Positions 6,922 through 22,840 of a stretch of 64,000 bases of DNA are shown piece after piece. Origin of the DNA: Streptomyces sp. ASQP_92 (lineage in GTDB: Bacteria; Actinomycetota; Actinomycetes; Streptomycetales; Streptomycetaceae); assembly GCF_025399895.1 (NCBI RefSeq), contig NZ_JAODUA010000013.1, positions 124,001-188,000 of the forward strand. Reading direction: 5' to 3'. Below the pieces are notes generated by a model. That model ran no database searches, was not told the origin of the DNA, and saw only the letters and a program-made list of their open reading frames with translations. Both the position numbers and the translations under genes were made by a program. How positions within the stretch are numbered: position 1 is the stretch's first letter; each line of letters opens with the position of its first letter.

Positions 6922-6994
6922 GCGGACGTGGCTCAGTTGGTAGAGCATCACCTTGCCAAGGTGAGGGTCGCGAGTTCGAATCTCGTCGTCCGCT
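6922..6994 (+). tRNA. tRNA-Gly (anticodon GCC)
   Basis: 73 nt; acceptor GCGGACG pairs with CGTCCGC, discriminator T. The anticodon loop TTGCCAA gives GCC. The T-arm reads GAGTTCGAATCTC. First of a five-tRNA cluster. Confidence 0.96.
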
Positions 6995-7032
6995 CGATGT
7001 GGGGGATCTTCCCGAACCCCATATGCACTCCT

Positions 7033-7103
7033 GGTGGAGTGGCCGAGAGGCGAGGCAACGGCCTGCAAAGCCGTCTACACGGGTTCAAATCCCGTCTCCA
7101 CCT
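7033..7103 (+). tRNA. tRNA-Cys (anticodon GCA)
   Basis: 71 nt; acceptor GGTGGAG pairs with CTCCACC. The anticodon stem ACGGC/GCCGT closes the loop CTGCAAA, giving GCA. The T-arm reads GGGTTCAAATCCC. CCA is not encoded. Confidence 0.95.
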
Positions 7104-7107
7104 CCAA

Positions 7108-7179
7108 GCGCGATTAGCTCAGCGGGAGAGCGCTTCCCTGACACGGAAGAGGTCACTGGTTCAATCCCAGTATCGCGCA
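7108..7179 (+). tRNA. tRNA-Val (anticodon GAC), copy 1
   Basis: 72 nt; acceptor GCGCGAT/ATCGCGC, discriminator A. The anticodon loop CTGACAC gives GAC. First of three identical copies at a 119-nt period; it starts only 4 nt after tRNA-Cys, so the cluster is surely co-transcribed. Confidence 0.96.
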
Positions 7180-7198
7180 CGCAGTAACACGAAGTAAC

Positions 7199-7222
7199 CG
7201 GCCCCGGTAGGTTGGGGGGCCG
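7199..7222 (+). ncRNA. Spacer hairpin 1 between tRNA-Val copies
   Basis: Stem CGGCCCC (7199-7205) with GGGGCCG (7216-7222). It occupies the same place as the hairpin at 7318-7341 and differs from it by two compensated base pairs. Possibly a processing signal. Confidence 0.6.
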
Positions 7223-7226
7223 TCCC

Positions 7227-7298
7227 GCGCGATTAGCTCAGCGGGAGAGCGCTTCCCTGACACGGAAGAGGTCACTGGTTCAATCCCAGTATCGCGCA
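7227..7298 (+). tRNA. tRNA-Val (anticodon GAC), copy 2
   Basis: Identical in sequence to copy 1. It is followed by the same 21-nt segment (cgcagtaacacg...) seen after copy 1, then a variant hairpin. Confidence 0.96.
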
Positions 7299-7317
7299 CG
7301 CAGTAACACGAAGTAAC

Positions 7318-7341
7318 CGATCCCGGTAGGTCTGGGGATCG
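7318..7341 (+). ncRNA. Spacer hairpin 2 between tRNA-Val copies
   Basis: Stem CGATCCC (7318-7324) with GGGATCG (7335-7341). Relative to spacer 1, GC becomes AT on the 5' arm and GC becomes AT on the 3' arm, so pairing is kept. Confidence 0.6.
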
Positions 7342-7345
7342 TCCC

Positions 7346-7417
7346 GCGCGATTAGCTCAGCGGGAGAGCGCTTCCCTGACACGGAAGAGGTCACTGGTTC
7401 AATCCCAGTATCGCGCA
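7346..7417 (+). tRNA. tRNA-Val (anticodon GAC), copy 3
   Basis: Same tRNA sequence as copies 1 and 2. Unlike them, the bases after the discriminator read CCA (7418-7420), so this copy has a genomically encoded CCA end, possibly by chance. A terminator follows at once. Confidence 0.95.
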
Positions 7418-18737: not shown

Positions 18738-19589
18738 CTACTTGGCGGCGCCGAACGCGGGGACGACGGAGCCCGCGTACTTGTCGGTGATGAACTTCTT
18801 GACCTCGTCGGAGTTCAGGAGCTTGACGAGCTTCTGGACGCGCGGGTCGTTCTCGTTGCCCTGCTTGACGGCGAGGAAGTTGGCGTAGGGGTTGCCCTCC
18901 GCCTTCTCCAGGGCGAGGGCGTCCTTGGCCGGCTTGAGGTCGGCCTCGATGGCGTAGTTGCCGTTGATGACGGCGGCGTCCACGTCGCTCAGGGCGCGGG
19001 GCAGCGTGGCGGCCTCCAGCTCCTTGAACTTCAGGCCCTTGCTGTCCTTGATGTCGGAGAGCTTGGCGCCGGAGCCGGCCCCGTCCTTCAGGGTGATCAG
19101 GCCGTTGGTGGCGAGGAGTTGGAGCGCGCGGCCCTCGTTGGTGGTGTCGTTGGGGACGGCGACCGTCTGGCCGGAGGTGATGTCCTTGAGGGCCTTGACC
19201 TTGTGCGAGTAGAGGCCGAGGGGCTCCAGCTCCACATTGACGACGGGCACGATGTGGGTGCCGTTCTTCTTGTTGAAGTCGTCCAGGTAGGGCTTGTGCT
19301 GGAAGAAGTTGGCGTCGACCTGACCCTGCTCGGTGGCGGTGTTCGGCAGGACGTAGTCCGTGAACTCCTTCACCTCCAGCTTGAGTCCGGCCTTGGCCGC
19401 CAGGTTGTCCTTGACGTACTTCAGGATGTCGGCGTGCGGGGTCGGGGACGCCGCGACGACCAGCGCCTTGGACTCGTCGGCCTTGCCGCCGGCCGTCTTC
19501 GGGTCGGAGGAGGAGCCGCAGGCGGTGAGGCCGGCGGCGAGCGCGGCGGTGACGACGGCGACAGCGGTGATCTTGGTGTTCTTACGCAC
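18738..19589 (-). CDS. metQ: MetQ/NlpA-type substrate-binding lipoprotein
   Basis: 283 residues, GTG start. A lipoprotein signal peptide ends in the lipobox LTAC (GLTACGSSS), so the mature protein would be lipid-anchored outside the membrane. The fold is NlpA/MetQ: LVVAASPTPHADILKYVKD, EFTDYVLPNTATEQGQVDANFFQHKPYL, then IVPVVNVELEPLGLYS. It delivers methionine, or a related sulfur compound, to MetNI. Third gene of the operon, 69 nt after metI. Confidence 0.93.
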   Translation of the reverse strand: MRKNTKITAVAVVTAALAAGLTACGSSSDPKTAGGKADESKALVVAASPTPHADILKYVKDNLAAKAGLKLEVKEFTDYVLPNTATEQGQVDANFFQHKPYLDDFNKKNGTHIVPVVNVELEPLGLYSHKVKALKDITSGQTVAVPNDTTNEGRALQLLATNGLITLKDGAGSGAKLSDIKDSKGLKFKELEAATLPRALSDVDAAVINGNYAIEADLKPAKDALALEKAEGNPYANFLAVKQGNENDPRVQKLVKLLNSDEVKKFITDKYAGSVVPAFGAAK

Positions 19590-19658: not shown

Positions 19659-20327
19659 TCAGGAGGTCCGGCCGCGGCGGGCGAGCAGGCGTACGACGCC
19701 GTCGCCGAGCAGCTGGATCACGGTGACGATGGCGATCAGGACGGCCACCGTGACGAGCATGAAGGTGGTCTCGAAGCGCTGGTAGCCGTAGGTGATGGCG
19801 ACCGAGCCGAGACCGCCGCCGCCCACCGCGCCGGCCAGCGCGGAGTAGCTGACGAGGGTGATCACGGTGGTGGTGATCGCGGAGACGAGCGAGGGCAGCG
19901 ACTGCGGCAGCAGCACCTTCCACACGATGGTGGGAATGCCGCCGCCCATGGACTGGACGGCTTCGACGAGCCCGTGGTCGACCTCGCGCACGGCGGTCTC
20001 CACGAGGCGCGCGAAGAAGGGGACGGCGCCGATGGACAGCGGCACGATCATGGCGCTGGGGCCGATGAAGGTGCCGACGAGCCAGGTGGTGAAGGGGATC
20101 AGGGCGATCAGCAGGATGATGAAGGGCAGCGAGCGGCCGATGTTCACGATCACGCCGATGACCTTGTTCACCGGGCGGTTCTGGAGCAGGCCGCCCTTGT
20201 CGGTGAGCACGAGCAGCACACCGAGCGGCAGCCCGAGCCCGATGGTGACCAGGGTCGCCCAGAGCACCATGTAGAGGCTGTCGTACGTTCCCTGCGACAG
20301 CAGCGGCTGCATGTCCGACCAGCTCAC
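19659..20327 (-). CDS. metI: MetI-type ABC transporter permease
   Basis: 222 residues with five hydrophobic segments. The start VSWSDMQPLLSQGTYDSLYMV and the cytoplasmic EAA-like loop EAVQSMGGGIPTIVWKVLLPQSLPSLV are those of the methionine importer permease. The GTG start overlaps the metN stop (GTGA), so the two are translationally coupled. Confidence 0.94.
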   Translation of the reverse strand: MSWSDMQPLLSQGTYDSLYMVLWATLVTIGLGLPLGVLLVLTDKGGLLQNRPVNKVIGVIVNIGRSLPFIILLIALIPFTTWLVGTFIGPSAMIVPLSIGAVPFFARLVETAVREVDHGLVEAVQSMGGGIPTIVWKVLLPQSLPSLVSAITTTVITLVSYSALAGAVGGGGLGSVAITYGYQRFETTFMLVTVAVLIAIVTVIQLLGDGVVRLLARRGRTS

Positions 20328-21379
20328 TTGGCACCTTCCTCGACCAGGTCGAGCGCCTGGCTGTCGTTCGGGACGCTGTCGTCCACGACGTCCACCTGGA
20401 GGCCCTGCTCGCGCAGGAAGCCGACGGGGACGACGTTCTCCTCGTAGCGGCCGGGCAGTTCGATCCGCATCCGGCCGATCTGCTTGCCGGCGACGGTGTC
20501 CATGGCCGCGCCGAGGATCGAGATGTCGATGTTGTACGTCCGCGACAGCTGGGAGATGACCGGCTGGGTGGCGGCCTCGCCGTGGAAGGTGACGTCGATG
20601 ACGGTGCGCTCGGGGCCGGAGGCCTCTCCGGTCACGGGGAAGAGTTCGGAGGCGAGTTCGGAGCCGGGGGTGGCGAGCAGCTCGCCGACCGTGCCGGACT
20701 CGATGACGCGGCCCTTGCGCATGAGGGCGGCCGAGTCGCAGATCGTCTTCACGACGTCCATCTCGTGGGTGATGAGCAGGACGGTGAGGCCGAGCTGCTG
20801 GTTGAGGTCGCGAAGGAGCTGGAGGATCGAGCGGGTGGTCTCCGGGTCGAGGGCGCTGGTCGCCTCGTCGGAGAGCAGCACCTTGGGGTCGCCGGCCAGG
20901 GCGCGGGCGATGCCGACGCGCTGCTTCTGGCCGCCGGAGAGCTGGGCGGGGTAGGCCCTGGCCTTGTCGGCGAGGCCCACCAGGTCGAGCAGTTCCAGCG
21001 CCTTGCGGGAGCGCTCCTTGCCGGAGATCCCGAGGATCTCCAGGGGCAGCTCGACGTTGTCCTGCACGGTGCGCGAGGACAGCAGGTTGAAGTGCTGGAA
21101 GACCATGCCGATGCGGGAGCGGGCCCGGCGCAGGTCCTTGCCGGCCCGGCGGCCGCGCCCGGCGAGCGCGGTCAGGTCGACGCCGTCGACGGTCACCGTG
21201 CCGGAGGTGGGGCGCTCCAGGAGGTTGACGCAGCGGATGAGGGAGGACTTTCCGGCGCCGCTCTGGCCGATGACGCCGTACACCTCGCCCTCGCGCACAT
21301 GCAGGTCGACGCCGTCGAGCGCGGTGATATCTCGTCCGCGCGACTGGTAGACCTTGGTCAGGCCCGTTGTGGTGATCAC
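20324..21379 (-). CDS. metN: MetN ABC transporter ATPase
   Basis: Walker A GQSGAGKSS, signature LSGGQKQRVGIARAL and Walker B LLSDEATSALDPET are intact (note LLSDEA, Ser in place of the usual Cys). After the ATPase domain, residues ~265-350 form the ACT-like regulatory domain (VIDVTFHGEAATQPVISQLSR) that in MetN binds methionine and inhibits transport. I use the GTG at 21379 (VITTTGLTKVYQS); the frame is open to 21433. The leader peptide at 21577-21663 precedes it on the same strand. Confidence 0.93.
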   Translation of the reverse strand: MITTTGLTKVYQSRGRDITALDGVDLHVREGEVYGVIGQSGAGKSSLIRCVNLLERPTSGTVTVDGVDLTALAGRGRRAGKDLRRARSRIGMVFQHFNLLSSRTVQDNVELPLEILGISGKERSRKALELLDLVGLADKARAYPAQLSGGQKQRVGIARALAGDPKVLLSDEATSALDPETTRSILQLLRDLNQQLGLTVLLITHEMDVVKTICDSAALMRKGRVIESGTVGELLATPGSELASELFPVTGEASGPERTVIDVTFHGEAATQPVISQLSRTYNIDISILGAAMDTVAGKQIGRMRIELPGRYEENVVPVGFLREQGLQVDVVDDSVPNDSQALDLVEEGAK

Positions 21380-21576
21380 AGGATTTCCGTCACTGTCGAG
21401 TGCGCGGCGCGGGGTGGGCCGGGCACGGGGCAAACGTGTTCGGGGCGCGGCTCGGCCTCATCGGTGGATACCGGGGGCACGGTGGCGCGGGGCAGGCCGG
21501 ATCCGTAGCTCGTGGTACGGAGACGGGCGCGGCCGACGTGGTCTCGCTTCGGGGCGCGAGGCTCAGGCGGGGGCCC

Positions 21577-21663
21577 TCAGAAGGCGCACATTCGACACAG
21601 ACAACGAGCACCGGGCGTCGTGATCGCCTCGGTCGCAAGGGTGCGGCTGCTCGTCGTGGTCAT
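21577..21663 (-). CDS. Cys-rich leader peptide upstream of metNIQ
   Basis: A 28-codon frame missing from standard length cut-offs: ATG at 21663, beginning MTTTSSRTLATEAITTP and ending RCLCRMCAF before TGA. Three cysteines fall in the last eight residues, preceded by Arg and Pro. This resembles short actinobacterial leader peptides before sulfur-uptake genes, where ribosome stalling at Cys codons reports Cys-tRNA supply. No ribosome binding site is visible; TTTACT 6 nt before the ATG suggests a leaderless message. About 197 nt separate it from metN. Confidence 0.65.
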   Translation of the reverse strand: MTTTSSRTLATEAITTPGARCLCRMCAF

Positions 21664-21697
21664 GTCGCAAGTAAAGCAGAACCGGTCGGGAACGAAT

Positions 21698-21726
21698 CAG
21701 GGATGTCCGAATACCGGACATCCCTG
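21698..21726 (-). terminator. Hairpin between HAD remnant and met leader
   Basis: 12-bp stem CAGGGATGTCCG/CGGACATCCCTG, loop aatac. It follows the stop of the HAD remnant and lies about 35 nt upstream of the leader-peptide ATG, so it insulates metNIQ. Confidence 0.65.
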
Positions 21727-21745
21727 GACTGCCATGTGGACGCTC

Positions 21746-22006
21746 TCACTCCGCCGCGGTGATCTCCACTCCCCCGTCCGTGACCAGCGCGGAGACGGCC
21801 GACAGGTGCTTCCCGACCACATCGGCGAGGAGCTCCTCGGCCCGGTGCGTTGTGGCCAAGGCCACGGTGGTCACGCCCGCGGCCCGGGCGGCCGCGAGCC
21901 CCGCCGGGGCGTCCTCGAAGACCACCCAGCGGGCCGGGTCCACGTCGAGGCGGGCGGCCGCGAGCAGGAAGGGCTCGGGTCGGGCTTTGCCCCGGGTGAG
22001 CCTACG
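21746..22006 (-). pseudogene. Remnant of a HAD-superfamily phosphatase (C-terminal third)
   Basis: The minus-strand frame from about 22006 to 21746 reads TRGKARPEPFLLAAARLDVD, WVVFEDAPAGLAAARAAG and TTVALATTHRAEELLADVV, the last ~85 residues of a beta-phosphoglucomutase-like HAD hydrolase with motif III Lys and motif IV ED. The N-terminal part with the nucleophile DxDG is absent; upstream, the frame runs into unrelated sequence opposite the membrane protein gene at 22062. No start codon gives a plausible protein. It looks like a 5' deletion, not a sequencing frameshift, because no missing domain is seen in other frames. Confidence 0.75.
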
Positions 22007-22061
22007 GGCGGGGGTGGGGGTGAGCGCATCGGGCCTTTCGGCCCGTAATACCCTCGACCCC

Positions 22062-22421
22062 ATGCTCGATGCCCTGACGATCGCGGTCGCCGCCGCCGCG
22101 CTCGCCCTCGCCGCCTGGTGCGGATTGGCCGCATACCGGGACCAGGCCACCAAGGACTGGCACTTCATCGGCATGGCCGTGGTCACCGTCCTCGCGCTGG
22201 CCCAGCTCGTGGTCGGGCTCGTTCAGCTCGGCCGCGGCGAGCGGCCCGAACAGGGCGTCGCGATCTTCGTCGCGTATCTGGCCGGAGCCTTCGCGGCCGT
22301 CCCGGCGGCGGGCTTCCTCTCGCTCTCCGAGCGGACCAAGTGGGGCTCGGTGACGGTGTCCGCGGGCGCCGTGGTGCTCGCCGTGCTCGAAGTGCGTCTC
22401 TACGACATCTGGGGAGGCTGA
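22062..22421 (+). CDS. Four-helix membrane protein, unknown function
   Basis: 119 residues from the ATG at 22062; TAATAC (22046-22051) upstream fits a -10 for a very short leader. Hydrophobic segments: LTIAVAAAALALAAWCGLAA, AVVTVLALAQLVVGLVQ, AYLAGAFAAVPAAGFLSL, and VTVSAGAVVLAVLEVRL. Likely one unit with the next gene, whose GTG begins 3 nt after this stop. Codon bias fits a real gene. No family is recognised. Confidence 0.75.
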   Translation: MLDALTIAVAAAALALAAWCGLAAYRDQATKDWHFIGMAVVTVLALAQLVVGLVQLGRGERPEQGVAIFVAYLAGAFAAVPAAGFLSLSERTKWGSVTVSAGAVVLAVLEVRLYDIWGG

Positions 22422-22423
22422 CC

Positions 22424-22840
22424 GTGACCGAGTCCGCCACTGACACCACGCCCGCCGAGAAGCTCGGCTCCGGGCCCGGCCGGGTACTCGTCTGGTTCTA
22501 CGGGGTGTTCACCGTGGCCGCGGCGTCCCGCTCGATCGTCCAGATGATCATGGACTTCGGCAAGGCCCCGCTGGCGTACGTACTGTCCGCGATCGCGGCC
22601 TGCGTCTACGGCTTCATCACGTACTCACTGGTGCGCGGCGGCGAGAAGGCCCGCCGGGCGGCGCTGGTGTGCTGCGCGGCGGAGCTCCTCTTCGTCCTGA
22701 TCGTCGGCACCTGGACCCTGGCGGACGCCTCCGCCTTCCCCGACGCCACGGTCTGGTCGGACTACGGCATGGGCTATCTCTTCATCCCGGTGATCCTGCC
22801 GGTCCTCGGCATGCTCTGGCTCAGGCGCGCCAAGCCCTGA
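22424..22840 (+). CDS. Integral membrane protein, unknown function
   Basis: 138 residues, GTG start with GGGGAGG inside the end of the previous gene. Four membrane helices (VLVWFYGVFTVAAASRSI, YVLSAIAACVYGFITYSL, AALVCCAAELLFVLIVGTW, MGYLFIPVILPVLGML). It resembles the many small Streptomyces membrane proteins annotated only as integral membrane. Translationally coupled to the upstream gene, so the two probably act together. Confidence 0.78.
   Translation: MTESATDTTPAEKLGSGPGRVLVWFYGVFTVAAASRSIVQMIMDFGKAPLAYVLSAIAACVYGFITYSLVRGGEKARRAALVCCAAELLFVLIVGTWTLADASAFPDATVWSDYGMGYLFIPVILPVLGMLWLRRAKP

Follow-up and report, generated by a model that had tools for sequence, protein, structure and literature searches.

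A reading frame with cysteine codons near its end is conserved upstream of metNIQ in Streptomyces: a candidate attenuator of methionine import

In a 64,000-nucleotide stretch of the Streptomyces sp. ASQP_92 genome (the window), a short minus-strand frame that ends in closely spaced cysteine codons stands ahead of the genes of a methionine importer. Is this a chance frame or a regulatory leader, which amino acid would it read, and how could it act on the genes that follow? The frame has 28 codons, starts with ATG and stops with TGA (21577..21663, minus). Its translation is MTTTSSRTLATEAITTPGARCLCRMCAF, with Cys at codons 21, 23 and 26 (21603-21601, 21597-21595 and 21588-21586, minus), and after the stop 197 bases intervene before the GTG of metN, with metI and metQ farther downstream. 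An earlier note, made from the letters alone, had described just such a 28-residue frame ending RCLCRMC upstream of metNIQ, with three Cys near the stop, and it is present as claimed. Among the 414 stop-bounded frames of the window able to give an ORF of 20-60 residues, no other has three or more Cys in the last eight residues. The 28-residue peptide matches no NCBIfam or Pfam family at E ≤ 1. The note called the frame unannotated, which holds only in part: in S. lividans TK24 the ortholog is annotated as metL (SLIV_29928). The ORF itself is already in print through that ortholog. In the available part of Droste et al. 2021 (PMC8079986), metL of this one strain is described as a leaderless, methionine-dependent element before metNIQ with several methionines and threonines. 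It is the same element: its peptide MSTTSDRTPATEATTTPGARCMCRRMCAF precedes metNIQ, and hairpins lacking a typical terminator are reported for it. Three loci of our set (L117, L118 and L122) carry the metL peptide letter for letter.

The names of the downstream genes are consistent with the family models, though MetN and MetI score under the NCBIfam cut-offs. metN (20324..21379, minus) codes for the ATP-binding protein of the importer; its best NCBIfam match is TIGR02314 (381 bits, curated cut-off 499.7) and it carries the NIL domain PF09383. The metN start codon (21377..21379, minus) is GTG, and 189 of 191 loci have GTG at the position aligned with it. The permease gene metI (19659..20327, minus) matches PF00528 and NF008049 (205 bits against a cut-off of 212), and metQ (18738..19589, minus), the gene for the substrate-binding lipoprotein, matches PF03180 at 312 bits. 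In S. coelicolor, the available text of PMC4991794 lists metNIQ (SCO1557-1559), and likewise cysteine biosynthesis genes, as up-regulated under oxidative stress, which its authors ascribe to HbpS-SenS-SenR.

Where would the leader mRNA begin? A -10 box, TTTACT (21670..21675, minus), ends 6 nt before the ATG. The hexamer is found in 186 of the 191 loci of the genus and as a one-base variant in the other five, always ending 6 or 7 nt before the ATG, and ATG is the start codon of all 191 leader ORFs. For the S. lividans ortholog a leaderless start from RNA-seq is given in the part of PMC8079986 available. Because the spacing of the -10 box is 6 nt, we predict a leaderless start for the window ORF as well, transcription probably beginning on the A of the leader ATG. 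Just upstream of this promoter is the palindrome TGTCCGGTATTCGGACA (21704..21720, minus), centred about 49 nt before the predicted start and conserved in most leaders of the genus. From its conserved columns and position it is a probable operator, the putative site of an activator or a repressor. The operator consensus that we searched had a single exact match in the genome, the leader palindrome, and gave 21 weaker rows versus seven for the reversed pattern. The spacing in the palindrome, GTCCG-N5-CGGAC, equals that of the 15-bp box GTCCA-N5-YGGAC of NdgR, an IclR-type protein; SCO1557, SCO1558 and SCO1559 are absent from the main text of the S. coelicolor NdgR ChIP-seq paper. Farther upstream of the leader is the C-terminal part alone of a HAD-type hydrolase (21746-22186, minus; PF00702 profile positions 151-191 of 191). 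It adjoins two small ORFs on the opposite strand (22062-22421 and 22424-22840) and looks like a truncated gene.

The earlier note had named lack of conservation, or of translation, as what would speak against a leader. The frame is not a chance ORF: in all 190 testable Streptomyces genomes metN is preceded by a leader ORF whose ATG has a -10 box 6-7 nt upstream. A search with the peptide gave matches in 199 genomes; 150 places from 149 of these were retrieved, and all 150 are upstream of metN. The remaining 50 genomes were searched with MetN, because weak or broken leaders might otherwise be missed. Of these, 44 have metN, three of them with too little upstream DNA, and the leader and -10 box are there in 41 of 41. 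Leaving out these three (G008, G073 and G050, whose metN match begins at contig base 6) gives the 190 genomes. One genome (G002) contributes two loci, hence 191. Where metN is not matched at E ≤ 1e-60, in six of the 199 genomes, leader matches are likewise no better than E 0.26. The leader ORF also occurs at 41 loci of related genera, which were picked by a match to the RNA model described below and are thus silent on genera lacking such a match. From 240 loci with a metN match we counted 234 leaders, dropping L178 and L188 (too little upstream DNA, no ORF), the metN paralogues L194-L196 and the locus L284 (no -10 box near the chosen ORF). At L242 the choice of ORF fell on an upstream GTG instead of the ATG. 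The 191 leader ORFs of the genus stop at TGA in 114 cases and at TAG in 77.

Is the frame read by ribosomes? Near its end is the nearly invariant hexanucleotide CGAATG (21589..21594, minus), which in frame with the ATG is the Arg codon CGA followed by a Met codon; CGA is rare, used at 0.24% of the 10526 codons that 22 long, GC3-rich window ORFs contain. CGAATG is present in 229 of the 234 leaders and absent from five. Its distance from the ATG takes ten values between 66 and 96 nt, and in all 229 leaders with the motif the distance is divisible by three. Because the ORFs counted had been chosen for being open, the count was repeated with only the -10 box and CGAATG as anchors: 209 of 209 were in frame (25 of the 234 could not be anchored). 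Distances from the stop to metN are spread over the three remainders (83, 71 and 75). Since the distances from ATG to CGAATG vary and yet are all multiples of three, the pattern indicates that the frame is under selection, and the leader ORF is probably translated.

A conserved frame need not mean a conserved peptide, and here the codon positions point the other way. In the 155 leaders of 28 codons variability is lowest at third positions (0.052, versus 0.071 and 0.108 at the others), the opposite of selection on the peptide, and codon differences are non-synonymous in 613 cases and synonymous in 102. As third positions vary least, it is not, for the most part, the peptide that is conserved, and in related genera its N-terminal part is swapped outright (for example MTATTNWTPTGTLPAGERAMCRRMCHC). 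All this makes it most improbable that the leader is a nascent-chain arrest peptide, in which the peptide itself would sense a small molecule in the exit tunnel, although the ending PGARC-CRM is conserved within the genus, as such a peptide would want. The reason for the low variability of third positions is RNA structure, in which most of the conservation of this leader resides.

That structure is a three-way junction inside the ORF (21601..21657, minus; leader nt 7-63), drawn from the minimum-energy fold and from covariation within the genus and among divergent members. Its minus-strand stems are P1 (21649-21657/21601-21609), P1a (21642-21645/21634-21637) and P1b (21625-21633/21610-21617). 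A hairpin, P2 (21543..21560, minus), lies 3' of the stop codon; its stem CUCGC/GCGAG covaries and its loop GCCCCGAA, searched as GCCCCGAAG, is found in 185 of 191 loci. In 59 diverse leaders the 27 pairs of the model are 94.0% paired and nine show two-sided changes, where shuffles give 2.9 ± 1.1 and slid controls 3-7; further pair types show no excess in these leaders, 74 of 500 shuffles reaching the observed number. In a divergent set of 50 leaders, 42 from outside the genus, 25 of the 27 pairs have two-sided changes versus 11.5 ± 1.9 shuffled, counts that lean towards structure because the alignment (A3) was fitted to the model. The covariance model (R1) gives one match each in 74 of 121 genomes of the family, in 12 of 17 genera, and has matches in 23 of the 246 genomes searched from the class, 22 in the window's genus and one in another family; both searches used stricter filters, and weak copies may be missed.

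Could the junction be a ligand-binding riboswitch that happens to overlap an ORF? The junction is real in the sense that it covaries, and the loop of P2 is almost invariant. However, the junction loops and most joining bases are the least conserved, unlike an aptamer core, and the reading frame is strictly kept. Moreover, the leader matches no Rfam family at the gathering threshold, Streptomyces-metH and Streptomyces-metK included, and a permissive scan of 21300-21800 gave one chance match, mir-3389. We therefore hold this explanation to be very unlikely. Elsewhere in the window, Rfam matches mark a five-tRNA gene cluster (6922-7417) and the Streptomyces sRNA Scr1601 (RF02830; 56328-56534, minus).

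If the leader is translated, which codons matter? Cysteine makes up 638 of the 2340 residues (27%) in the last ten positions of the 234 leaders versus 84 of 4323 (1.9%) before them. All 234 have at least one Cys there and 222 have at least two, mostly non-contiguous and split by Met and Arg. UGU accounts for 444 of the 638 Cys codons of the leader ends versus 12 of 90 in the 22 long window ORFs. Of the 155 leaders of 28 residues, 142 have kept Cys at codon 21, 145 at codon 23 and 111 at codon 26, where another 41 have Arg. The ending RCLCRMC of the earlier note is thus true of the window peptide but not of the genus, whose consensus is GARC(M/L)CRM(C/R). Related genera keep the ending (for example ...AMCRRMCHC) while the remainder changes.

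The published reading of S. lividans metL is that the ribosome reads the Met codons, so that the importer would be induced when methionine is short. In its favour, the operon imports methionine, and the published naming goes with this reading. Methionine makes up 431 of the 2340 terminal residues (18%), at least two Met occur among the last ten residues in 192 of the 234 leaders, and the pair RM is kept in 233. The Met at codon 25 (151 of 155) is kept better than any of the Cys codons, which means that conservation alone cannot show cysteine to be the signal. Yet Cys is denser than Met at the leader ends, the leader L182 has four Cys but lacks an internal Met, and none of the 234 lacks Cys in the last ten. 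CGAATG, moreover, is kept at the nucleotide level too, since codon 24 is CGA in 151 of the 151 leaders that have Arg there (n = 155). Cysteine appears to us the better reading, and a methionine-reading attenuator unlikely. The proposal of the earlier note that the transporter answers to cysteine supply accordingly keeps its footing in the Cys codons conserved near the stop but has to live with a Met codon that is kept even better. A further suggestion, that the transporter has a wider range of substrates, found no support in this analysis. Methionine can feed cysteine via reverse transsulfuration, and for this reason answering to cysteine needs no new substrate: methionine import would help a cysteine-poor cell by that route.

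How might the position of a ribosome on these codons be passed on to metN? The minimum-energy fold of the window leader shows the junction, with pairs to nt 61, and from nt 62 a long-range helix, P4. Its proposed 5' strand, UGUCGA-(AU)-GUGCGC (21584..21597, minus), spans Cys codons 23 and 26. The 3' strand (21389..21405, minus) lies before the ribosome-binding region of metN and consists of GCGCACUCGACA at 21394-21405 and of GAC at 21389-21391, which pairs with leader nt 62-64. Both strands were placed from the fold and from complementarity, and both motifs could be placed in 218 of the 234 leaders, to which the counts refer. At least ten of twelve positions pair in 177 loci and all twelve in 76, and the half UGUCGA/UCGACA is fully paired in 149. 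P4 is 87.9% paired versus 87.0 ± 0.2% with shuffled partners, a level that none of 500 shuffles reaches, a significance inflated by relatedness; covariation is almost absent, and an uncompensated C stands opposite A at leader positions 69 and 76 in 21 and 52 loci, respectively. The duplex between the Cys region and the sequence upstream of metN has a mean energy of -24.4 kcal/mol versus -21.2 (sd 4.5) with shuffled partners and beats every one of its five shuffles in no more than 92 of 234 leaders, a test that is weak because of GC content. The folding energy of the whole leader is ordinary (z -0.20 versus shuffles).

Folding with a masked ribosome was done on every third of the 191 loci that hold CGAATG (n = 63). 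Masking a stalled ribosome's footprint opens the P4 partner region in 50 of the 63, masking a ribosome at the stop codon in 22 and a control mask in 15. In the free state the Shine-Dalgarno window is already about half open; its mean gain on stalling is 0.04 (control 0.01), with a gain in 34 of the 63 leaders (control 14). The region of the metN start codon does not open under the stalled mask (0.525 to 0.500, n = 63), and the summed P4 pairing reaches at least four pairs in only 34 of the 63.

As for the invariance of CGAATG, it covers two bases that bulge from the proposed P4, and its A is kept in 34 of the 37 loci where the P4 partner is C; neither helix P4 nor the peptide explains this invariance. 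Two other ideas were discarded. A competing pairing between the 3' arms of the junction and of P2 is 93.5% paired, with no excess over shuffles. A hairpin-stabilised pause of RNA polymerase at CGAATGUG was dropped because the spacing between ATG and motif is not constant in the genus, ranging from 69 to 96 nt.

On balance we favour a ribosome-mediated attenuator that controls metNIQ through the Cys codons and probably acts on metN translation, and P4 complementarity and the mask test, with their limits, are why translation attenuation is held as the leading mechanism. The mRNA would start at the A of the leader AUG, as reported for the S. lividans ortholog and as the -10 spacing suggests here. 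A ribosome would load on that AUG and open the three-way junction while reading. When charged tRNA-Cys is scarce, it would stall on the Cys codons near the stop, most of which are the rare UGU. Parked there, it would cover UGUCGAAUGUGCGC and so prevent pairing with the sequence before the metN ribosome-binding region, and metN would be translated. When cysteine is ample the ribosome would finish and leave, the junction and P4 would form, and metN translation would fall; the C-rich untranslated RNA might then also be exposed to Rho. In this scheme we infer the stalling, the amino acid sensed and the role of P4 as the switch.

The last step has a version that can stand by itself. The same Cys-reading leader might have as its output Rho-dependent termination of transcription in the C-rich stretch that separates it from metN; this is a serious competitor of translation attenuation, or may work together with it. 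The stretch is 46% C and 29% G, C exceeds G in 191 of 191 loci, and the best 78-nt window of C minus G has a median of 0.24 versus 0.13 upstream of the promoter and -0.09 on the antisense strand. An intrinsic terminator between leader and metN was not found (no terminator-like site in 21300-21800), and TTTT occurs in only 10 of the 191 intervals. A similar weak prediction for mycobacterial cys leaders appears in the available part of Seliverstov et al. (PMC1262725). Against this, C-richness also fits a plain unstructured leader, the sequence of the interval is poorly conserved, and no rut consensus exists. Taken as the output, Rho seems to us somewhat unlikely, an estimate that overlaps the one for translation attenuation, since the two share the reading of Cys.

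To what known system does the metN leader, with translation attenuation as its preferred mechanism, come closest? In attenuators of the trp/ilv type, the position of the ribosome on control codons chooses between RNA structures. The same kind of choice would be made at the metN leader; unlike those systems, no U-tract terminator hairpin was found there. The closest known kind would be the leaderless polycysteine sORF attenuators of mycobacteria (Canestrari et al. 2020, as presented in the available parts of PMC9031893, PMC13236596 and PMC9094748), for which earlier leads are found in the parts available of Shell et al. 2015 (PMC4633059) and Seliverstov et al. 2005. As these sources describe them, the Cys codons of the mycobacterial sORFs are contiguous or clustered, and the genes downstream are cysteine-metabolic or hypothetical. 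The metN leader shares with them, so far as those texts go, a leaderless start, Cys codons just before the stop, a sulfur gene downstream and the lack of an obvious intrinsic terminator; the leaderless start is indicated here indirectly, by the position of the -10 box, 6-7 nt upstream of the ATG at all 191 loci. It differs in the Met and Arg codons that alternate with those for Cys, in having a methionine importer as its target and in the three-way junction within its ORF. The earlier note had set the leader beside the Cys-rich uORFs that actinobacteria use for cysteine-dependent attenuation, and a conserved, probably translated frame with Cys near its stop is of the same general kind as the leaderless uORFs of mycobacteria.

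The available part of the S. lividans metL account (PMC8079986) neither proposes a reading of Cys nor describes a conserved RNA structure or a long-range helix. Among the titles and abstract openings that we searched, few of them from subscription journals, no paper takes the leader to read cysteine or gives an account of its RNA structure. What is added here is a frame under selection, a junction RNA with covariation, an end that keeps Cys and Met, and complementarity of the Cys stretch to the sequence before the metN ribosome-binding region. If the Cys-reading attenuator is right, cysteine-codon attenuation would extend from mycobacterial cys genes to a methionine importer in Streptomyces and related genera, methionine uptake would be linked to cysteine supply, and the published label 'methionine-dependent' would be corrected. 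The leader would also be a clear case of a small ORF conserved for RNA structure and reading frame and not for its peptide. Cysteine supply feeds mycothiol and sulfur-containing natural products. A broader proposal, which we put forward only tentatively, is a translational switch common to the whole family that makes methionine import a cysteine-supply route in Streptomyces and relatives. In it one leaderless ORF would be at once a junction RNA, a reader of Cys (possibly of Cys and Met) through the rare codons UGU and CGA, and one strand of a long-range helix that closes the ribosome-binding region of metN.

Do such frames occur farther afield? We examined eight of 21 metN matches from outside the genus (L308-L315). 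L309, L311 and L313 have no leader frame upstream of metN, the frames at L312 and L315 have two Cys towards the end and were not counted as leaders, and the Cys-rich frames at L310 and L314 are doubtful. A clear Cys-rich frame, ending RRMCGC, precedes metN at L308. This is the same place as L284, in another family, where the frame (1466-1594 of that locus, minus) ends GCTRCRRMCGC; the RNA model matches it weakly (E 5e-6 for one genome), and its start has no -10 box of the same kind. Finally, two genomes have a metN paralogue (L194 and L195, about 50% identity) with a different short ORF, MSRTLFCTRRRTVDHMVITSAACFSH, in front of it.
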